Position numbers and translations under genes: made by a program. The notes beneath the pieces were generated by a model. That model saw only the letters and a program-made list of their open reading frames with translations. It ran no database searches and had not been told where the DNA came from. Positions 22,293 through 31,769 of a DNA stretch of 32,142 bases are shown here, in pieces (position 1 is the stretch's first letter; each line of letters begins with the position of its first letter). The stretch is from Eubacterium sp. (GTDB lineage: Bacteria; Bacillota; Clostridia; Lachnospirales; Lachnospiraceae). Location: NCBI GenBank assembly GCA_022767895.1, contig JALENH010000005.1, forward strand, positions 1-32,142, read 5' to 3'.

Positions 22293-24116
22293 TCATTCTA
22301 CAGTGACGCTTTTGGCGAGGTTTCGCGGCTGGTCTACATTGAGGCCTTTTTCTACGGATACGTAGTAGGCCAGGTACTGCAGAACGACGGTTGCAACAAA
22401 CGGTGCAAAGAGTGGGTCTGTGTCCGGCAGTACGATGTGATAGTCGCAGAGTGCGGCATCTACTTCCGCGTCTGCCCCGGTAATCAGGATGACTCTTGCA
22501 CCACGGGACCGCACTTCCTGTACGTTGGAAATAATCTTGGCATAAACATCCGGCTGGGTTGCCAGTGCAATGACAGGAACGTTATCCGTAATAAGGGAGA
22601 TTGTTCCGTGTTTCAATTCGCCTGCAGCGTAAGCTTCCGAGTGTATATAACTGATTTCCTTTAATTTCAGTGATCCTTCACAGGAGAGGGCATAGTCGAG
22701 GCCACGTCCCAAGAAGAAAATGTCTGTAGCTTTTGTCAGGCGTTTGGCAATGCGCTCGGTCTGAGAGTCGTAGCCAAGAACTTCTTCCACCTTGTTGATG
22801 GTATTCATCATGGTTGTCATATATTCAGCAGCTTCCTGTTCACTGATTTTTCCACTGACAAGAGCAAGGCGGAAAGCAATCAGATACATAACGGCAACCT
22901 GCACACTATAGGCTTTTGTACTGGCCACGGCAATTTCCGGACCGGCATGGGTGTACAGGACATAATCGCTTTCACGGGCGATGGAAGAGCCTTTTACATT
23001 TACAACGGAAAGTGTTTTGGCACCTCGTTCCTTTGCCAGGCGAAGAGCGGCAAGGGTATCGGCTGTTTCGCCGGACTGGGATACCGTAATCAGAAGTGTT
23101 TTCTCATCGATAATCGGATTCTGGTAACGGAATTCCGAAGCGATATCAACGGTTACCGGAATACGGCATAAACGTTCAATCATATTTTTTCCCATGAGTC
23201 CGGAATGCATGGCAGTTCCACAGGCAGTAATGACGATACGGTTGATGCCTTCGAAAATGTCATCGCCAATATTATCAGCAGAAAAATCCGGGAGTCCGTT
23301 CACCATACGGGGACGGATTGTATTCCTGAGAGCTTCCGGCTGCTCGTGAATTTCTTTCATCATGAAATAATCATAGCCGCCCTTTTTCGCAGAAGCCATA
23401 TCCCAGCTGATATGGTGGATATAAGGGCCATAAACTTCACCATTTTCATCTTTTACAATAATCTCGTCCTCTGTCAGTTTGGCGATGTGCCCTTCCTTTA
23501 AAACAAAATAATGTTTTGTATAGCTTACCAGTGCCACCATATCAGAAGCAATGATGGAACCGCGGTCGGTGTGGGCTGCTACCAGTGGGCTTCCGTTTCT
23601 CACAGCGTAAATCGTCTCCGGAATGTCAGAGAACATAACACAGAAGCCGTAGGCACCCTCTAGTTTTGTAATTGCTTTTTTGATGGCGGCTTCCGGGTCA
23701 CCATGATAGCAGTCATTGATGACCATGGCAGCAATCTCGGTATCAGTCTGGGAAACCGGTTCCAGACCCTTGGCAGCCAGCTCTTCCTGCAATTCCTTGT
23801 AGTTTTCAATGATTCCGTTGTGAATCAGCGTTACTTTCCCGGCTGTATGAGGGTGGGAGTTGGTGGCTGAGACGCCACCGTGGGTCGCCCAGCGTGTATG
23901 ACCGATTCCGCAGGTAGCAACATCATCGGATGCCTCATCTGCCACTTTTTCCTTCAGTTTGGAAACCTTTCCAACTGTTTTAATAGTTTTGATTCCTTCC
24001 GGCTGGCAGTACGCAATTCCGGCACTGTCATAGCCACGATATTCCAATGTCTGTAAGCCTTTAATCAACGCTTTTTTTGCATCATCAAGGCCAACATAAC
24101 CAATAATTCCACACAT
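22293..24116 (-). CDS. glmS: Glutamine--fructose-6-phosphate aminotransferase (isomerizing)
   Basis: Makes glucosamine-6-phosphate from fructose-6-phosphate and glutamine, the entry to amino-sugar and cell-wall synthesis. The 607 residues are normal. The N-terminal glutaminase starts with the catalytic Cys2 (MCGIIGYVG), with CGIGHTRWATHGG and the TDTEIAA segment. Two SIS sugar isomerase domains follow (ITACGTAMHSGL; TVSQSGETADTL; FFLGRGLDYALSCEGSLKLKE). The C-terminus QPRNLAKSVTVE is the conserved end. AAGGAG at 24131-24126 precedes the ATG. Its leader holds a glmS ribozyme, so it is switched off by its own product. Confidence 0.98.
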   Translation of the reverse strand: MCGIIGYVGLDDAKKALIKGLQTLEYRGYDSAGIAYCQPEGIKTIKTVGKVSKLKEKVADEASDDVATCGIGHTRWATHGGVSATNSHPHTAGKVTLIHNGIIENYKELQEELAAKGLEPVSQTDTEIAAMVINDCYHGDPEAAIKKAITKLEGAYGFCVMFSDIPETIYAVRNGSPLVAAHTDRGSIIASDMVALVSYTKHYFVLKEGHIAKLTEDEIIVKDENGEVYGPYIHHISWDMASAKKGGYDYFMMKEIHEQPEALRNTIRPRMVNGLPDFSADNIGDDIFEGINRIVITACGTAMHSGLMGKNMIERLCRIPVTVDIASEFRYQNPIIDEKTLLITVSQSGETADTLAALRLAKERGAKTLSVVNVKGSSIARESDYVLYTHAGPEIAVASTKAYSVQVAVMYLIAFRLALVSGKISEQEAAEYMTTMMNTINKVEEVLGYDSQTERIAKRLTKATDIFFLGRGLDYALSCEGSLKLKEISYIHSEAYAAGELKHGTISLITDNVPVIALATQPDVYAKIISNVQEVRSRGARVILITGADAEVDAALCDYHIVLPDTDPLFAPFVATVVLQYLAYYVSVEKGLNVDQPRNLAKSVTVE

Positions 24117-24194
24117 AGTAGAAATCTCCTTATGAAAATAATAATATTTTGCTACTGTTCCTTTTGTTTCTCTGTTGCCAGAGGTTTTGTAGAA

Positions 24195-24335
24195 CAGCTA
24201 CGCACAACGTGAGTGTTTCACGCCTTACAATGTGCGGGAGAGCATCCGCCGAAAATTCGATCCGTAATGATACGATGTGAGGATAATTCACATTCTCTCC
24301 ACCTCGTCAACCCCGTGGGTCTGGCGCTAATTTTA
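24195..24335 (-). ncRNA. glmS ribozyme (glucosamine-6-phosphate-activated self-cleaving riboswitch)
   Basis: On the minus strand the leader of glmS reads AGCGCCAGACCCACGGGG, GTTGACGAGGT, ATCGAATTTTCGGCGGATG and CTCCCG in order, the conserved core of the glmS ribozyme class. The cleavage site lies just before G of GCGCC, between 24328 and 24327. A following stem, CGCAC...GTGCG with an inner GTGA/TCAC pair (24201-24236), fits P4. Binding of glucosamine-6-phosphate triggers self-cleavage and mRNA decay. Outer limits are approximate. Confidence 0.95.
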
Positions 24336-24391
24336 CCGCTTCTTTTTGCGGAAGCATTTCTGCTTGAAAACTCCTTTCTTTATCCTATGAA

Positions 24392-25731: not shown

Positions 25732-26181
25732 ATGGGTTTTAACGGGATGAATTTGTGGCAGAGGGAGAGTCAGATTGCAAAAGTGATTGAGACCAATCAG
25801 AAGACAGCAAAATTTGGTCTTTCCTTAACAGAAGAGGAGGCAAAGCTGATTGTAAGGGAAAAAAGCGATGTACTGAAACGGCAGCGCAGAGTGGAGTTTG
25901 GAGCAGGCATCACAGAAAAACTGATTTTTGAATTTTGTGATTCGGTGTATTTGGATTCTTCCAATTATGTGGAGACGATTATTCGACTGCAGGAGATTTT
26001 TTATTGCTATAAAAATGAGGTGTTGGATCAGGTTACGGATGATGAACTGCTGCATTTTATGAAAAAGCAATTTGAAACAAGATGTCATGGTGATTTGGAT
26101 TATCTGGAAAGCACCTGCCTGGAAAATTTTGCCCGGGCAATCCGTGCAGGATATGACCCGGATTGGGAGGAGTGGGAATGA
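25732..26181 (+). CDS. Uncharacterised protein, DUF6323-like
   Basis: A 149-residue, acidic, helical protein without signal peptide or membrane helix. From memory it resembles DUF6323, known only from Clostridia: LSLTEEEAKLIVREKSDVLKRQRRVEFG, split near residue 30-57, and FCDSVYLDSSNYVETIIRLQ near 73-92 are the kind of blocks conserved there. No function is known. The ribosome site GGGAGG (25720-25725) sits in the aroB terminator stem, six bases before the ATG. The gene overlaps the next one by ATGA, so the two are translationally coupled and probably act together. Confidence 0.75.
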   Translation: MGFNGMNLWQRESQIAKVIETNQKTAKFGLSLTEEEAKLIVREKSDVLKRQRRVEFGAGITEKLIFEFCDSVYLDSSNYVETIIRLQEIFYCYKNEVLDQVTDDELLHFMKKQFETRCHGDLDYLESTCLENFARAIRAGYDPDWEEWE

Positions 26182-26990
26182 TGAATTTCAGTGTGGAAGA
26201 ATTACTGCCGGTTGTGGGAAAGCTGGCAGAAAAGTATACCGGATGGGAAAGTACATCCATTACCTACGAAAAGGCGGAACAACTGATGGAGGCAGTTTTG
26301 TACTGTATCCGGGAAATGGACGGCCAGAAGGAAGGACTGGTGTCGCAGGAGAAAATGTCTGCTGAAATGGCATATGAGCTGGGGTATCAATGTGTGGTGG
26401 AAAAGGTAAAAGAAACATTGGATTTGTACCACAAAATATTGCCGGATTTTTCTTTTTATGAAAACCGGTGTCTGCGCGATACTTTTTTGAAAGGGATACC
26501 TGAATTTTTTCGGTGGTATGACGTGAAATTTGAACCGCAGAACACAATTTTGACGCTGGATTATCCGGTATTGGTTGATTTATCCGGTTGCTCCGGAATC
26601 GACAGAATTCACAAATATCTGGCTTGTATTCATGTGGAGCAGAAATTCCTGCAGCGTTTTCCGGAAGAAGAAGTAATCCACATTTTATCCCGATATAACA
26701 AGCACCACAGGGACATGATTGTAAATATCTGTGACTTTGTTTTGCTGGATATTGCGAAAAAAATGGTGGCGGAGGCTGGTCTGACGGGAGAGCAGGAAAT
26801 CAAAGATTTTCTCCGGAGTGTTGTTCCCAGACTGGTGCAGGAGTACTATGGGGGAGACGAGGATTTGTGTGATTATCTTTCCCATGGTATGGATAATGTG
26901 ATTACCCGGATTTTAATTTGCAAGGAAAATTTTATAGATTTTAATTTGCAAGGAAAATTTTTCTTGACATTTATCCGAAATGGGAGTTAA
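26178..26990 (+). CDS. Uncharacterised protein, DUF6179-like, with a shifted C-terminus
   Basis: A 270-residue soluble, mostly helical protein resembling DUF6179, recalled as a regular neighbour of DUF6323. FLKGIPEFFRWYDVKFEPQ and ILTLDYPVLVDLSGCSGIDR mark the conserved centre. ATG 26178 overlaps the upstream stop (ATGA) and has GGGAGG (26165-26170) seven bases before it. A 28-base tandem duplication at 26909-26961 changes the reading frame near the end. Without it the protein would end at a TGA shortly after ICKENF, so the last 16 or so residues are new. A promoter for the following operon overlaps its 3' end. Confidence 0.75.
   Translation: MMNFSVEELLPVVGKLAEKYTGWESTSITYEKAEQLMEAVLYCIREMDGQKEGLVSQEKMSAEMAYELGYQCVVEKVKETLDLYHKILPDFSFYENRCLRDTFLKGIPEFFRWYDVKFEPQNTILTLDYPVLVDLSGCSGIDRIHKYLACIHVEQKFLQRFPEEEVIHILSRYNKHHRDMIVNICDFVLLDIAKKMVAEAGLTGEQEIKDFLRSVVPRLVQEYYGGDEDLCDYLSHGMDNVITRILICKENFIDFNLQGKFFLTFIRNGS
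26909..26961. repeat. 28-base tandem duplication
   Basis: A 25-base AT-rich unit at 26909-26933 recurs unchanged at 26937-26961, giving a period of 28. As 28 is not a multiple of three, the two copies are read in different frames (ILICKENF then DFNLQGKF). Perfect identity points to a recent event. Confidence 0.93.
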
Positions 26991-26992
26991 AT
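26964..26992 (+). promoter_or_regulatory. Promoter of the ATP-grasp/alpha-E/transglutaminase operon
   Basis: TTGACA (26964-26969), 17 bases and TTAAAT (26987-26992), overlapping the end of the preceding gene and directly after the AT-rich tandem repeat, which may act as an UP element. No later promoter fits before the first gene of the operon. Confidence 0.6.
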
Positions 26993-27002
26993 AGGTACTA
27001 GA

Positions 27003-27036
27003 ACAAAGGCGTTAGGACTTTTCCTGACGCCTTTGT
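27003..27036 (+). other. Hairpin at the 5' end of the ATP-grasp operon mRNA
   Basis: ACAAAGGCGT-T-AGGA (27003-27017), loop CTTT, then TCCT-G-ACGCCTTTGT (27022-27036) form a 15-bp stem with one T-G pair. The tail CGTGTTTT is a weak terminator at best. With a start near 26999 the mRNA would begin with this stem, which fits a stabilising cap or an attenuator. Confidence 0.75.
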
Positions 27037-27068
27037 CGTGTTTTATGGAAGAGAAAGGGGGCAACCAA

Positions 27069-28388
27069 ATGCATGAAATGGACTTGTATGATCACACAGA
27101 AACGGTTAACGAGCTTTTGGCCCGCTATGGAGTGAAATTTGGTATTTATAAAAACAATACCTTTAAGGAGCAACTTTTTCCCTTCGATGCGATCCCCAGA
27201 ATTATTCCCAAAGAGGAGTTTGATAAACTGGAAAAAGGATTGAAGCAACGAGTTATGGCACTGAATCTTTTTCTTAAGGATATTTATGGTGAAAAAAGGA
27301 TTATCCGGGATAAAGTGGTGCCGGAGGAGTTTATTTATGCTTCCAGCGGCTATCTGACACAGTGTGAAGGAATTTGCCCGGTAAAAGGAATTTATTCCCA
27401 TATTTCCGGCATTGATCTCGTGCAGGGGAAAGACGGGGAGTGGTACATTCTGGAAGATAATCTGCGGGTGCCTTCCGGTGCTTCTTATCCCATGATTGCC
27501 CGTGAGCTGTGCAGACGGAGCAGTCCGAGAACGTTTCAGGAATATCACCTGGAGGACAACCGGAACTATGCGGACCTTCTGCGGCATACCATGGACTATG
27601 TCAACGTGGAAGGGCATACGGTGATTCTTACACCGGGACGATACAATGCCGCCTATTTTGAGCATTCCTATCTGGCGGAGCGGACAGGTGCCCATCTGGT
27701 GAACGCTTCCGCATTGCGGGTAGAGGATGATAAATTATATTTCATCAGTGCCAGTGGAAAGAAGGAGCGGGTAGGAGCTGTTTACCGGAGGATATCCGAT
27801 GAATATATGGATCCCATCGCCTTCAATGAGGAATCGCTGATTGGTATTCCTCACATCTTCGATGTGTACCGCAAAGGAAATGTGGCACTGCTTAACGGCA
27901 TCGGGAACGGCATTGCGGATGACAAGGGAATTTACTATTTTGTTCCCCGGATGATTCGCTATTATCTGGATGAGGAACCGATTCTGCAGAATGCACCGAC
28001 TTATCTTCCTTTTTATGAAGAGGACATGGCATATGTACTGGAACATTTTGATTCCCTCGTCTTAAAGGATGTGGCGGAAGCCGGCGGCTACGGTGTTGTA
28101 TTTGGAAGCAGTATGACAAAGGAAGAAAAGGAAAATTTTATTGCTTTGTTAAAACGGGAGCCACGGCGATTTATTGCACAGGAAGTTATTGATTTTATGG
28201 ATCTCGATATTATGGATAAGGGAGAAATTGTCCCCCGCAAAGCGGATCTTCGCGCCTTCGTACTGATGGCAGAGGAACCAATGGTGTGGAAAAGCGGTCT
28301 GACCCGGTTTTCCAGAAACCCGGATTCATTCATTGTGAATTCATCACAGGGAGGAGGTTTTAAAGACACATGGGTATTATCTCAGTAG
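27069..28388 (+). CDS. Circularly permuted ATP-grasp protein (type 2)
   Basis: A predicted ATP-dependent amide or peptide ligase of 439 residues in the family of circularly permuted ATP-grasp proteins (DUF404/DUF407). Conserved blocks appear in order: SHISGIDLVQGKDGEWYILE and DNLRVPSGASYP (near 115-145), LTPGRYNAAYFEHSYLA, LLNGIGNGIADDKGIYYFVP, LVLKDVAEAGGYGVVFGS, the glycine-rich ATP loop, RRFIAQEVI, and FIVNSSQGGGFKDTWVL at the end. Start 27069 has AAGGGGG (27055-27061) seven bases upstream. In-frame ATG 27045 lacks such a site. It overlaps the alpha-E gene by 19 bases. The family is known from predicted peptide-synthesis operons with alpha-E and transglutaminase-like proteins. The substrate here is unknown. 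Confidence 0.9.
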   Translation: MHEMDLYDHTETVNELLARYGVKFGIYKNNTFKEQLFPFDAIPRIIPKEEFDKLEKGLKQRVMALNLFLKDIYGEKRIIRDKVVPEEFIYASSGYLTQCEGICPVKGIYSHISGIDLVQGKDGEWYILEDNLRVPSGASYPMIARELCRRSSPRTFQEYHLEDNRNYADLLRHTMDYVNVEGHTVILTPGRYNAAYFEHSYLAERTGAHLVNASALRVEDDKLYFISASGKKERVGAVYRRISDEYMDPIAFNEESLIGIPHIFDVYRKGNVALLNGIGNGIADDKGIYYFVPRMIRYYLDEEPILQNAPTYLPFYEEDMAYVLEHFDSLVLKDVAEAGGYGVVFGSSMTKEEKENFIALLKREPRRFIAQEVIDFMDLDIMDKGEIVPRKADLRAFVLMAEEPMVWKSGLTRFSRNPDSFIVNSSQGGGFKDTWVLSQ

Positions 28389-29038
28389 AACAATTAGACC
28401 GGCTGTATTGGCTGGGGCGGTATGTGGAGCGGGTATATACTACGACATGCCTGTACTCCACCAGATATGATATTATGATTGATGGTGATTCCACCAGTTA
28501 TGCAGATTTCTGCAGAAATTTGGAAATTCCCAATATTTATACGTCACCGGAGGATTTTCGTTATACCTATGCCTATAGCGAAGAAGATGAAAATTCCATT
28601 TTCAGTAATCTGAACCGGGCCTATGATAACGCCATTGAACTTAGGGAGACCATCGGCAGTGAGGCGCTGTCTTACATCCAGCTGGCAATTTATGATATGA
28701 ATAAGGCCAAAATCAGTGATGCACCATTGATTGATTTACAGAAGGTGATGGATAATCTACATGCCTTCTGGGGTGTTATTGATGATGAGGTGGATGATGA
28801 ACGCTGTCGGAATACGATGTTGATTGGCAAGCGGGTGGAGCGAATTGACCTCTATGGCAGATTGAAGTTGGACCGCAAGGCAATGACTAGAGAGGTGCAG
28901 CGCCTGGCAGGCCGCATCGACCGGAGTGCCATTCATTATCAGAAATCCATGCTGGAAGAACTGCAACAGCTGGTAGAAGCAGAACCTCTGGATTATCATC
29001 ATATCGTACAGGATGTGGAGAGGATTCGCTGCGAATAA
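28370..29038 (+). CDS. Alpha-E domain protein (DUF403), short form
   Basis: A helical protein of 222 residues. The family start is clear: ISVEQLDRLYWLGRYVERVY, the counterpart of 'LYWLGRYLERAE' in alpha-E proteins. LNRAYDNAIELRETIGSEAL and the later ERIDLYGRLKLDR also fit. Most alpha-E proteins have about 300 residues, so this one lacks roughly a quarter. No frameshift is visible. GGAGGAGG (28350-28357) lies 12 bases before the ATG, inside the ATP-grasp gene. Alpha-E proteins are thought to partner the permuted ATP-grasp enzyme, and the 19-base overlap suits that. Biochemical role unknown. Confidence 0.87.
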   Translation: MGIISVEQLDRLYWLGRYVERVYTTTCLYSTRYDIMIDGDSTSYADFCRNLEIPNIYTSPEDFRYTYAYSEEDENSIFSNLNRAYDNAIELRETIGSEALSYIQLAIYDMNKAKISDAPLIDLQKVMDNLHAFWGVIDDEVDDERCRNTMLIGKRVERIDLYGRLKLDRKAMTREVQRLAGRIDRSAIHYQKSMLEELQQLVEAEPLDYHHIVQDVERIRCE

Positions 29039-29056
29039 AGGGAGTGGCAGACTACC

Positions 29057-29875
29057 ATGAAGACACTTTTGTTTGATTATGAAATGAAAATTGTTTTTGA
29101 TGCGCCTGTTTCAGATCATCGTTTTACTGTAAGGTGTATTCCGCTTGACAGTGAGAGACAGAAAATTCAGAAACTTTCGTATTCGATTTATCCTGACAGT
29201 TCACTGGAAACCGGTTTTTCCCAAGGCACAGATTCATTTGGAAATTTCTGTGTCTATGGGGAATGTGCCAGACCACATGAGCATTTCAGCATCCAGGTGA
29301 AAGGGGAGGCGGTTTCCGGTCTAAGCGACCATGAATCTGCCGAAGCACTGCATATGTTGGGACGATTCCGCTATCCATCCCATTACACCAGACCGGGAGA
29401 AAATCTGCTTGCTTACCATCGCAAATTTGCTTTTCCGGCCTCGGATACGGCGATGGAAAAAAGCATTGTTATGATGCGCCGGCTCTACCGGGATTTTTTA
29501 TATGTTCCCGGTGCTACCAATGTCAGTACGACGGCGGAGGAGGCAATGACTCTGGGACGTGGTGTATGTCAGGATTATTCTCACATTCTCATTGCCCTTT
29601 GCCATATGGAGCGGATTCCGGCCAGATATGTAGTGGGGATGTTGGAAGGGGAGGGAGCCAGCCATGCCTGGGTGGAGATTTATGACCGGGGGAGTTGGTA
29701 TGCACTGGATCCTACGAACAATCTGATTGTCAGTGATTCCCATATCAAAATCTCACATGGTCGTGATTACAAAGACTGCCTGATTAATCAGGGGGTTTTT
29801 ACCGGTCAGGCAGGTCAGCGGCAGGAAATTTATGTTTCCGTGAAAGAGGAAGAAAAAGAGGAGTGGAGAAAATGA
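29057..29875 (+). CDS. Transglutaminase-like cysteine protease family protein
   Basis: 272 residues. The N-terminal 110 residues are a beta-rich domain (FDYEMKIVFDAPVSDHRFTV; DSFGNFCVYGECARPHEHF) of the kind found before bacterial transglutaminase-like folds. The catalytic triad is complete: C171 (GRGVCQDYSH), H203 (GASHAWVEI) and D218 (YALDPTNN). No signal peptide is seen, so it acts in the cytoplasm. In such operons the protein is predicted to cleave or transfer the peptide or amide bond made by the ATP-grasp partner. It lies 18 bases after the alpha-E gene and overlaps the next gene by ATGA. Confidence 0.92.
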   Translation: MKTLLFDYEMKIVFDAPVSDHRFTVRCIPLDSERQKIQKLSYSIYPDSSLETGFSQGTDSFGNFCVYGECARPHEHFSIQVKGEAVSGLSDHESAEALHMLGRFRYPSHYTRPGENLLAYHRKFAFPASDTAMEKSIVMMRRLYRDFLYVPGATNVSTTAEEAMTLGRGVCQDYSHILIALCHMERIPARYVVGMLEGEGASHAWVEIYDRGSWYALDPTNNLIVSDSHIKISHGRDYKDCLINQGVFTGQAGQRQEIYVSVKEEEKEEWRK

Positions 29876-30843
29876 TACAAACAGTGACACAATTAACGTT
29901 ACCGGTGGATGAGACTCTGATGATACAGAAAAATCATCTGGTGCCGGAAGGGGAAGATTGCGGGAAGCGGATTAGTATCGTCACCGGAATTCACGGTGAT
30001 GAACTGGAAGGACAATATGTCTGCTATGAAGTGGCAAGAAGGATTCAGGAGCAGCCGGAACTCCTTACCGGTACCGTGGATATTTACCCGGCGATGAATC
30101 CCTTGGGAATCGATTCGGTGACCCGTGGAATTCCGTCCTTTGATATGGATATGAACCGGCTTTTTCCGGGAAATGAGGATGGCTCCATGACGGAATATCT
30201 GGCATCCCAAATTATAAAAGATTTGGAAGGCTCTGACCTTTGTGTGGATATCCACGCCAGCAATATCTATCTGACAGAAATTCCGCAGATTCGTATTAAT
30301 GAGCTGCACAAGGACTGGCTGGTGCCGATGGCTGCGAAGATGAATGTGGACTTCATCTGGGTGCATAGTAATGCGACGGTTTTGCAGTCTACACTGGCAT
30401 ACAGTCTGAATCATGCCGGTACTCCGACGCTGGTTGTGGAAATGGGAGTGGGAATGAGAATTACCAAATCCATTTGTGAACAGCTGGTGGATGGTATTTT
30501 CTACTCCATGAAGGAGATGGGAATCTGGCAGGGAGAGGTAAAACCGGTTCGTAAGCCAATGATTTCTATTGATGAAAGCAAGGTGGCATTTCTTAATGCC
30601 TCTGCTTCCGGTGTTTTTGTGCAGACAGCACGGCATGGACAATATTTGCAGGAAGGTGACGAAATTGGGCGGATTCTGAATCCACTGGCAGGGGAGGTAT
30701 GTTCTTTCGTCCTTTCGCCGGTAGACGGGGTTCTTTTTACCATCCGTGAATATCCAATTGTTGACCAGGGGTCACTGGTAGCCCGTGTACTGCAGAGAAA
30801 TGAGCCATATACGGCGGAATCTGAGGGGAGAGAAAAGGAATGA
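29872..30843 (+). CDS. Succinylglutamate desuccinylase/aspartoacylase family protein (zinc site intact)
   Basis: A zinc-dependent acylase or carboxypeptidase-like protein of 323 residues (M14/AstE-AspA superfamily), likely cleaving an N-acyl amino acid or amide. The zinc ligands are H41 and E44 (GIHGDELEG) and H128 (CVDIHAS). Substrate-binding DMNRLFPG follows the family pattern, and E190 (VVEMGVG) is the probable catalytic base. The C-terminal 100 residues look like the small beta-barrel of AstE proteins (GVFVQTARHGQYLQEGDEIG). GTG 29863 is possible, but ATG 29872, overlapping the upstream stop as ATGA with GAGGAG eight bases before, is preferred. It is fourth in the ATP-grasp operon. Confidence 0.88.
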   Translation: MIQTVTQLTLPVDETLMIQKNHLVPEGEDCGKRISIVTGIHGDELEGQYVCYEVARRIQEQPELLTGTVDIYPAMNPLGIDSVTRGIPSFDMDMNRLFPGNEDGSMTEYLASQIIKDLEGSDLCVDIHASNIYLTEIPQIRINELHKDWLVPMAAKMNVDFIWVHSNATVLQSTLAYSLNHAGTPTLVVEMGVGMRITKSICEQLVDGIFYSMKEMGIWQGEVKPVRKPMISIDESKVAFLNASASGVFVQTARHGQYLQEGDEIGRILNPLAGEVCSFVLSPVDGVLFTIREYPIVDQGSLVARVLQRNEPYTAESEGREKE

Positions 30844-31769
30844 AAGAGACTACATTATATCAAATTGATTCTTTATACCGGGATCATTTTCGTGTAAAGG
30901 GATACATTTTTGGCGAAGGGAAAAAATCCCTCTGTGTGATGGGAAGCTTGCGGGGAAATGAGATTCAGCAGATTTATGTCTGCTCCCAGCTGATCCAGTG
31001 TCTGAAATTATTGGAGGAAGAGGGCCTGCTTGCCAAGGGACACCAGATTCTTGTGGTACCCTCCGGTAATCCTTATTCCATGAATATCCAGAAGCGTTTC
31101 TGGCCAACGGACAACACAGATATCAACCGCATGTTTCCGGGTTATGATAAGGGAGAAACCACCCAGCGTATTGCTGATGGAATTTTCCGAGGGATTCAGG
31201 ACTATGAGAATGGAATCCAGCTCACTTCTTTTTACATGCCTGGGGATTTTATGCCGCATGTGCGTATGATGACGACAGGGATGGAAAATGTGGAACTGGC
31301 CAAACGATTCGGTCTTCCTTATGTTGTCCTGAGAGAGACAAGACCCTATGATACGACAACCTTGAACTATAACTGGCAGATTTGGGAATCCAATGCCTTC
31401 AGTCTTTACACGACGGTTACATCACGTATCGATAAAATAAGTGCCAAGCAGGGGATCGAGGCCATTTTACATTTTATGTATGAAGAAGGACTTTTGACAG
31501 AGCAGGTGGGGCGTGAGGATCCGGTTCCGGTTCATGTCATCCGGGATACAGATATGATTGTGGCACGAACGAGCGTAGCAGGACTCTTTGAAACCGAAGT
31601 GGCAGTGGGGCAGATGGTGTCAAAAGGAGAATTGCTGGGACGGGTACTGGACTCCTATACAGGAGATGTACGGGAGGAGATTTTTGCACCGACAGGAGGA
31701 ACCATTTTCTTCCTTTATACCGATCCTCTTGTGTATGAGAGGACCGCTGTATTTAAAATCGTGAGCTAG
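30840..31769 (+). CDS. Degenerate AstE/aspartoacylase-like paralogue lacking zinc ligands
   Basis: 309 residues, clearly related to the preceding protein. MGSLRGNEIQQ aligns with TGIHGDELEG, DINRMFPG with DMNRLFPG, and both end in a similar beta-barrel (GLFETEVAVGQMVSKGELLG). The zinc histidine is replaced by R38, the second histidine position falls on T129 (GIQLTSF against CVDIHAS), and the glutamate region reads LRETRP. E41 alone remains. It is therefore likely a non-zinc or inactive partner, perhaps a binding subunit of the active paralogue. ATG 30840 overlaps the previous stop (ATGA). It is the last gene of the operon, with no strong terminator after it. Confidence 0.82.
   Translation: MKETTLYQIDSLYRDHFRVKGYIFGEGKKSLCVMGSLRGNEIQQIYVCSQLIQCLKLLEEEGLLAKGHQILVVPSGNPYSMNIQKRFWPTDNTDINRMFPGYDKGETTQRIADGIFRGIQDYENGIQLTSFYMPGDFMPHVRMMTTGMENVELAKRFGLPYVVLRETRPYDTTTLNYNWQIWESNAFSLYTTVTSRIDKISAKQGIEAILHFMYEEGLLTEQVGREDPVPVHVIRDTDMIVARTSVAGLFETEVAVGQMVSKGELLGRVLDSYTGDVREEIFAPTGGTIFFLYTDPLVYERTAVFKIVS

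Follow-up and report, generated by a model that had tools for sequence, protein, structure and literature searches.

The five-gene locus

The stretch of DNA analysed here, referred to as the window, comprises 32,142 nucleotides of Eubacterium sp. (Lachnospiraceae; contig JALENH010000005.1 of assembly GCA_022767895.1, our contig C68) and belongs to a 2.58-Mb genome in 332 contigs that is 90% complete. Near its end lies an operon of five genes, encoding a circularly permuted ATP-grasp protein, an alpha-E protein, a transglutaminase-like protein (TG) and two consecutive AstE/DoeB-like proteins, here called AstE1 and AstE2 (Table 1). The first three genes are adjacent in one operon and form the trio of ATP-grasp, alpha-E and transglutaminase genes that was reportedly described by Iyer et al. 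in 2009. All five genes of the initial annotation were recovered at the same coordinates and on the same strand, with agreeing Pfam names and with the same junctions, namely an overlap of 19 bases between ATP-grasp and alpha-E, a gap of 18 bases between alpha-E and TG, and overlaps of 4 bases at both the TG/AstE1 and the AstE1/AstE2 junction. The ATP-grasp gene starts with the ATG at 27069, behind AGAAAGGGGG; the mechanically assigned TTG start at 27033 falls inside a terminator stem.

Table 1. Features of the five-gene operon, its leader and its surroundings in the window
Feature	Position	Strand	Support or remark
ATP-grasp, circularly permuted (CP_ATPgrasp_2; relative of PDB 3N6X)	27069-28388	+	Pfam 3e-135
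Alpha-E, short, all-helical model	28370-29038	+	Pfam Alpha-E 3.4e-18
Transglutaminase-like (TG)	29057-29875	+	Transglut_core 1.2e-16 plus Bact_transglu_N
AstE1, predicted intact AstE/DoeB-like zinc deacylase (M14-like)	29872-30843	+	AstE_AspA_cat 6.8e-26
AstE2, zinc-less AstE/DoeB-like pseudoenzyme	30840-31769	+	AstE_AspA_cat 1.7e-11
Sigma-A-type promoter TTGACA-N17-TTAAAT	26964-26992	+	10/12; overlaps end of upstream DUF6179 gene
Small hairpin GAAC-[AAAGGC]-GTTA, three pairs here, ANTAR-like hexaloop (A1, G4)	27001-27014	+	Two-sided changes in relatives
Intrinsic-terminator-like hairpin, 15 pairs	27003-27036	+	z -4.0; covariation; 68/68 leaders
DUF6323 and DUF6179 genes	25732-26990	+	
24-base stretch present twice	26910-26961		
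glmS ribozyme	24144-24339	-	RF00234, 44.2 bits
Glutamine-fructose-6-phosphate aminotransferase-like gene	22293-24116	-	Named by eye

The ATP-grasp protein aligns with 3N6X over nearly its whole length, including the motifs EDNLRxPSG, GGYG and VNSSQGGGxKDTW. In TG the residues Cys171, His203 and Asp218, which we take to be the catalytic triad, are invariant in 25/25 sequences. The alpha-E protein has 222 amino acids and covers positions 7-164 of the 294 in the Pfam family. Its model is all-helical (predicted local distance difference test, pLDDT, 93; predicted template modelling score, pTM, 0.90); the fold found no match in the PDB at E<=0.001, and the best match of a sequence search was only a designed peptide (E 0.29).

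Conservation of the five-gene unit

A sample of 200 family genomes was scored for alpha-E with PF04168 and for AstE2 with a profile. Alpha-E was present in 27 of them, the window genome included, and AstE2 was found in 27/27 of these; the distribution (27 genomes with both, 0 with alpha-E only, 24 with AstE2 only and 149 with neither) gives a Fisher value of 1.2e-19, uncorrected for kinship. Within the family the trio thus implies the pair, while the pair does not imply the trio. The regions of all 26 family relatives with alpha-E were fetched, and AstE1 and AstE2 follow TG in 24/24 of those whose contig continues. The exceptions are contigs that end after or inside TG (L031, L041) or start after the ATP-grasp gene (L032), and a locus whose alpha-E gene has stops and whose ATP-grasp gene is shortened (L050); the remaining relatives keep the five-gene order. 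One genome (G114) has the pair on contig L211 and the trio on L041 and can be counted neither as adjacent nor as separate. The initial annotation had put its idea of a five-gene system to the test of whether the pair is conserved beside the trio in related genomes, and the idea has come through that test.

At least 582 AstE2 relatives turned up in a scan of named genomes, and the 80 best were retained. AstE1 was present in all 80 of these loci and the full five-gene order in 68, five of them with one gene in two pieces. Of the other 12 loci, nine are cut by contig ends, two are deletion remnants (L110 and L164, with no alpha-E found elsewhere in their genomes) and one, from a Treponema metagenome-assembled genome (L129), carries insertions. 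The last was rejected as a split locus because its five genes all lie on the same strand in the usual order, interrupted by other genes. It is a telling case: the spacing is broken, yet none of the five genes is lost. In L174, from a Treponema metagenome-assembled genome, the operon is stretched over 16 kb, with inserts that include a 987-aa protein and genes that look PIN- or WYL-like by eye. The operon is also carried by Eubacterium plexicaudatum ASF492 (L128), and the overlap between ATP-grasp and alpha-E is exactly 19 bases in 86/99 loci. There is slight overlap between the 26 family relatives and the 80 named loci: four AstE2 row pairs are identical between the two sets, so the pooled counts hold a few duplicates.

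In wider samples, AstE2 at E<1e-40 was found in 6 of 398 genomes of the phylum, all six with the five genes in order; they include other classes and the family f60, whose alpha-E is full-length. AstE2 occurred in 10 of the 146 genomes of an order sample. Three of these, from other families (L208-L210), have all five genes in order and four (L204-L207) have the pair only. Judged by gene content and order, these comparisons show the five genes to be a conserved unit.

AstE1 and AstE2

The description of one intact and one zinc-less AstE protein in the initial annotation was borne out: AstE1 carries HGDE and DIHAS, and AstE2 has RGNE and lacks the second His. AstE1 has the family score of PF24827 together with its H-x-x-E ... 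H zinc ligands (H41, E44 and H128) and its catalytic Glu. In rows from a trio context H41, E44, R85, N95 and R96 are found in 114/114 (one further row is gapped) and H128, R141 and E190 in 115/115. In pairs that stand without the trio, R96 is kept in 19/30 and H41 in 25/30. In M14 carboxypeptidases the residues equivalent to the arginine and Asn-Arg set of AstE1 hold the free carboxylate. By this analogy the expected reaction of AstE1 is release of an amino acid or cleavage of an acyl-amino acid.

AstE2 has the fold of PF24827 and neither its zinc ligands nor its catalytic Glu. The first zinc position is R38 in 115/117 trio-context rows, DIHAS is replaced, and the position of the catalytic Glu is Tyr in 114/117. 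Another set of residues, M98, Y102, G105, E106, T107, T108, Q109 and R110, is present in 117/117 rows beside the trio (113 distinct), and the motif MFPGYxxGETTQR is invariant there. The residue tallies count as trio context a remnant (L199) and a short contig without any trio gene (L203); leaving these two out gives 115/115. Among the 31 trio-less rows, by comparison, Y102 is Tyr in 1, Q109 is Gln in 8, M98 is Met in 14 and W182 is Trp in 2. The AstE2 of family f60 still has the zinc residues and has lost the Glu, which suggests a stepwise loss of catalysis with the ligand site retained. As far as its residues tell, AstE2 is a conserved pseudoenzyme; a decaying copy was considered and rejected, the mean column identity being 64% in 68 rows.

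The solved relatives of both proteins are DoeB and the cyanophycin-dipeptide hydrolase CphZ, which the AstE2 model (pLDDT 88, low at 92-100) matches at 1.4e-20 and 1.1e-17. AstE1 and AstE2 are not DoeB itself, with 58.0 and 35.8 bits against a cut-off of 402.7 bits for TIGR02994. In one relative (L080:7669-9204, reverse strand) AstE2 has a C-terminal extension of about 200 amino acids that looks methyltransferase-like by eye.

The AstE pair without the trio

Of the 24 family genomes with AstE2 and without alpha-E, 22 contributed a fetched locus (all but G042 and G124), and 21 of the 22 have the tandem pair. Altogether 38 further loci were fetched, of which 31 have the pair and no trio, one of the 31 being AstE2 alone. 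An earlier impression that AstE2 always accompanies the trio, which came from the phylum sample at E<1e-40, was overturned by the 24 family genomes. A permuted ATP-grasp gene is present in two of the 24, partial in both; in one of the 24 genomes (G124) a partial ATP-grasp gene overlaps a partial AstE2 gene. In 17 of the 31 trio-less loci (L175-L207) a gene of about 1250 amino acids lies downstream of the pair, at most 500 bases away in 13; from its N-terminus it is presumably purL.

Remnants of the trio persist in some genomes. In G019 (locus L250) the ATP-grasp residues 1-277 run straight into residues 71-264 of TG behind the leader described below, a deletion remnant unless the assembly is at fault; truncation at a contig end was rejected here, since the fused remnant sits on a 163-kb contig. 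In G094 (locus L242) ATP-grasp residues 4-81 are followed by AstE2 residues 279-308, still behind the leader, a deletion remnant. In FastTree phylogenies, whose backbones are weak, the trio-less AstE2 rows do not form one clade, and the deepest branches, with weak backbone support, are held by trio-context sequences.

Promoter and leader hairpins

The initial annotation had placed a single promoter before the five genes. The promoter stands; what had been overlooked is a leader, between promoter and first gene, in which a terminator hairpin and a small hairpin overlap. The promoter (26964-26992) was not listed by the automatic scan, which demands that the second hexamer have A in its position 2. 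Taken alone, one such match may be due to chance, but 73% of 94 homologous upstream regions have a match of at least 10/12, compared with 7% of mononucleotide shuffles. Such a strong promoter lies 52-207 bases before the first gene in 68/91 upstream regions (66/89 distinct).

The terminator-like hairpin sits between the promoter and the first gene, 12 bases past the DUF6179 stop. The leader folds at <=-15 kcal/mol in a 50-base window in 68/68 strong-promoter leaders (66 distinct), against 7/68 shuffles; the shuffles of the promoter and folding tests preserve single-base composition only. The conserved letters of the hairpin are GAACAAAGGCGTTCTGC, the loop and GCAGRGCGCCTTTTTT, and its covariation amounts to 13 pairs and 45 two-sided cells, compared with 7.1 in shuffles. 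The same letters also form a small hairpin, GAAC-[AAAGGC]-GTTC, with a 5' arm outside the terminator and a 3' side common to both; because they share bases, the two structures are mutually exclusive. The small hairpin has 11 two-sided cells against 3.5, a value reached by 0/500 shuffles, and its stem varies as GAAC/GTTC, AAAC/GTTT and AAGC/GCTT. The leader copy of the window matches no Rfam family near threshold.

Upstream of the operon, closely spaced DUF6323 and DUF6179 genes run up to the promoter. Directly before the promoter, at the end of the DUF6179 gene, the 24-base stretch attttaatttgcaaggaaaatttt is present twice, 28 bases apart. Farther upstream a glmS ribozyme lies just upstream of the glutamine-fructose-6-phosphate aminotransferase-like gene. 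In the relative L052 the ATP-grasp gene is preceded by a near-perfect inverted repeat of 28 pairs that resembles a small mobile element.

A leader shared with nitrogen-assimilation genes

A model of the leader, R1, was built solely from 39 leaders of the five-gene operon, one of them (L110) from a remnant. R1 matches 60/91 testable operon upstream regions (59/89 distinct) and 21/52 of those outside training (20/50 distinct). The small stem has at least three pairs in 53/63 operon leaders with the site pattern and in 24/25 other R1 sites, compared with 13% when the 5' arm is shuffled. The window genome has two strong matches, the leader of the operon and a site 47 nt upstream of the gene for a glutamine synthetase (GS) III of 703 aa; the rest are at E 0.02 or weaker. 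One of the weak matches (L235:1285-1330, reverse strand, own-genome contig C13; 29.4 bits, E 0.02) precedes a 294-aa gene that looks CorA-type by eye. In ASF492 the matches are the operon leader, an Lrp/AsnC gene and the start of an operon that combines glutamate-synthase-like genes with a GlnA-like gene and an ANTAR protein.

In 25 family genomes without alpha-E there are 24 R1 matches at E<=0.001, distributed over 15 genomes. Fourteen of the 24 precede genes for GS III (5), GS I (3), glutamate synthase (GOGAT; 2), P-II (2) and the ammonium transporter AmtB (2), and further matches precede carA (1), purF (1) and the shortened ATP-grasp genes of the remnants G094 and G019 (2). Among 33 loci fetched for the trio-less pair, R1 was found at the start of AstE1 (L193), at a remnant (L199) and weakly in L178. 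The operon thus carries the same leader element as the GS, GOGAT, P-II and Amt genes of a Lachnospiraceae nitrogen-assimilation regulon. That the element is shared is shown by these matches at the level of sequence, and the sharing points to a role of the five-gene operon in nitrogen nutrition. At the remnant locus L110, whose operon has an internal deletion, a second nitrogen-type leader stands at the start of an aminotransferase-like gene (L110:8079-8125, forward strand), with putrescine-aminotransferase-like and aldehyde-dehydrogenase-like genes (by eye) upstream of it.

According to Ramesh et al. 2012 (PMC3369931, in extract), the RNA targets of ANTAR proteins are hairpins with a hexaloop carrying A1 and G4; they overlap terminators and mostly precede nitrogen genes. 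The window leader has such a hairpin, with the loop AAAGGC, overlapping its intrinsic terminator. A1 is found in 50/63 leaders and G4 in 63/63, but A or G at position 1 and G at position 4 belonged to the site pattern. An ANTAR gene is present in 28/28 genomes tested, and 28/29 ANTAR sites adjoin GS I.

Neighbouring genes and transport

In a minority of relatives, genes of polar-amino-acid-type ATP-binding cassette (ABC) transporters, ArAE/FUSC-HAD exporter-like genes or peptidase C26 genes lie in or next to the operon. In several arrangements, the operon is chained to ABC genes that come with a matching permease or solute-binding gene (13/112 loci, 12 distinct) or to ArAE/FUSC-HAD genes (10/112). 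The solute-binding protein of L030 is closest to 2v25, which presumably binds Asp/Glu. Where transporter genes stand before the ATP-grasp gene and the front of the operon is visible, the leader precedes them: it stands before ArAE and ABC ATPase genes in L039 and before an ABC ATPase gene in L030. Second copies of the leader are found before ABC genes in L093 and before peptidase C26 in L126 and L140. A fixed transporter within the unit was rejected, as such genes are present in subsets only. The initial annotation saw no transporter in the cluster and suggested that the product may be cytoplasmic. There is indeed none in the window, and the inference is weakened by the transporter and exporter-like genes of the relatives, some behind the same leader.

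Proposed role and alternatives

The five genes probably constitute a nitrogen-limitation operon, predicted from sequence to build and unbuild an amide-linked compound. This route is proposed because co-control with GS and GOGAT, the response of the Anbu-type relatives in Pseudomonas to the nitrogen source, the kinship of AstE1 to enzymes which liberate amino acids from acylated or isopeptide forms, and the neighbours found in a minority of loci fit it. With ample nitrogen, transcription would start at the promoter (26964-26992) and end at the terminator hairpin. When nitrogen is limiting, an antiterminator, for which the ANTAR protein encoded next to glnA is the likeliest candidate, would hold the GAAC-[AAAGGC]-GTTC hairpin and allow read-through. 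The ATP-grasp protein and its alpha-E partner, whose genes overlap by the conserved 19 bases, may then join a small amino compound in an amide bond, at the expense of ATP. TG, with Cys, His and Asp kept, may act on the ATP-grasp product, and AstE1, as a zinc deacylase with carboxypeptidase-like substrate residues, would cut the amide bond to give a free amino acid. AstE2, the dead twin, may bind the same ligand as a partner or sensor. The two AstE proteins would occupy the hydrolase slot filled in other bacteria by Anbu, an N-terminal nucleophile (NTN) hydrolase. The net effect would be an amide-linked compound made and broken to capture or release nitrogen. The putative cycle of ligase and hydrolase suggested in the initial annotation is plausible. 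Only tentatively can a wider proposal be put forward, which may well prove wrong: that the trio and the AstE pair form an unrecognised ATP-driven pathway of nitrogen assimilation, co-regulated with GS and GOGAT through a single-hairpin ANTAR variant, and that the Anbu operon is the same pathway with another hydrolase.

Several observations weigh against the proposed role or parts of it. AstE2 is present in 51/200 family genomes, 27 with alpha-E and 24 without, at variance with a strict five-gene unit; the pair can therefore act alone. In the phylum sample alpha-E occurs in 9/398 genomes, and 3 of the 9 have no AstE pair. R1 has no match in 31/91 testable upstream regions (9 of these lie behind transporter genes, and the others have diverged or lack the leader) or in 10 of the 25 genomes without alpha-E, and 6/24 matches in the latter set precede genes for PucR, LuxR, an amidohydrolase piece or IS200 (once each) or no gene (2). 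Counted by pairs, the two-sided changes of the small hairpin are 3 against a mean of 1.8, a value reached by 66/500 shuffles. Loop position 1 is G in 13/63 leaders, and P1, the first hairpin of the tandem ANTAR arrangement, was found in only 4/63 operon leaders and 2/25 other sites, with about 8% expected by chance; a canonical dual-hairpin ANTAR RNA was consequently rejected. ANTAR occurs moreover in all the genomes tested, whether or not R1 has a match there. With P1 missing and loop position 1 variable as well, the role given to ANTAR rests on context. A single-hairpin ANTAR element is the likeliest form to judge from the leaders, and another RNA-binding protein is a possible antiterminator. 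Finally, the available extracts of the open-licence literature examined nowhere name the substrate of the trio.

The same genes could be read in other ways. The hairpin might be no more than the terminator of the upstream gene, a view suggested by its terminator-like form and its closeness to the DUF6179 stop. It is hardly credible, as a similar hairpin lies downstream of the promoter in 68/68 leaders although most loci have no recurrent upstream gene, an arm lying beyond the terminator takes part in the covariation of the small hairpin, and the same leader precedes GS, GOGAT, P-II and AmtB genes in other genomes; a plain upstream terminator was rejected on the 68/68 leaders. The AstE pair might also be an independent hydrolase of two proteins that simply accompanies the trio, and AstE2 does occur without alpha-E in 24/51 AstE2 genomes, with the purL-like gene directly downstream in 17/31 trio-less loci. 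Against this stands the family sample, where no alpha-E genome is without AstE2 (27/27). Lone pairs also lose residues that are kept in the trio context, the deepest branches are of trio context, with weak backbone support, and shortened trio genes persist in L110, L164, L199, G124, G094 and G019, which suggests repeated loss of the trio. A separate hydrolase is thus very unlikely.

Two further explanations concern the product. The operon could make an amide or peptide metabolite for export, ligating imported amino acids and releasing the product via the ArAE-like protein. The ABC genes chained in 13/112 loci, the ArAE/FUSC-HAD genes in 10/112 and the 2v25-like binding protein of L030 would suit this. 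Transporter genes are, however, absent beside most loci and in the window, no recurrent gene of >=80 aa for a carrier protein or precursor was found, and the leader common to GS, GOGAT, P-II and AmtB points to nitrogen nutrition, so that export seems quite improbable. Peptide tagging and untagging, in which the ATP-grasp protein attaches a tag to proteins and an AstE hydrolase removes it, is also unlikely. It draws on the Anbu operons, which contain the same trio and for which tagging was proposed (PMC5666114 and PMC6376114, both in extract), and the ligase-hydrolase pair is strictly conserved. On the other side, those AstE/DoeB-type relatives whose function is known have small acyl-amino acids or dipeptides as substrates, no recurrent tag gene was found among the flanking genes (open reading frames >=80 aa), and the window genome, 90% complete, has no proteasome, HslV or Anbu.

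Comparison with known systems

AstE1 shares with the AstE, DoeB and CphZ proteins of PF24827 the fold, the zinc ligands and the arginine, Asn-Arg and glutamate residues. The present case differs in having two tandem copies, one without zinc ligands, both far under the NCBIfam equivalog cut-offs. The leader resembles those of ANTAR regulation in that its terminator overlaps a small A1/G4 hexaloop hairpin, its targets are nitrogen genes and an ANTAR gene stands beside glnA; it differs in that P1 was not found, whereas the published case requires both hairpins (PMC3369931, in extract). No paper describing this leader element in Lachnospiraceae was among the open-licence literature matches listed. 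As it stands, the leader is a compact RNA element common to GS, GOGAT, P-II and ammonium-transporter genes.

The closest known system is the Anbu operon. Its trio is of the same three families, the ATP-grasp protein found here being alignable to 3N6X nearly end to end, and the reported expression of the Anbu operon is nitrogen-linked, as the leader is of nitrogen type here. According to the extracts available, the ATP-grasp and Anbu genes of the Pseudomonas putida Anbu operon are up 4.0 and 4.4 log2 on nitrate compared with ammonium (PMC8050072), while nitrogen starvation brings high expression of Anbu, whose operon encodes an ATP-grasp protein that releases phosphate from ATP (PMC6376114). 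The present operon differs in that AstE1 and AstE2 take the fourth and fifth positions, in its control by a leader hairpin and in its alpha-E of 222 aa, compared with about 300 in the phylum relatives L081-L084. It is not an Anbu operon, as PF00227 had no match in the genome (90% complete) or among the operon proteins of the window. No paper on the trio together with an aspartoacylase was among the literature matches listed, nor was a description of the AstE pair in the hydrolase slot or of a nitrogen leader of the operon found among them (open-licence extracts only). The trio, and the Anbu operon as its four-gene form, were thus known already; on this literature, the presence of AstE1 and AstE2 in the hydrolase slot and the control by a nitrogen leader appear new. 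Placement in the nitrogen regulon would tell under which conditions and in which strain (ASF492) to study the operon and what kind of product to expect.

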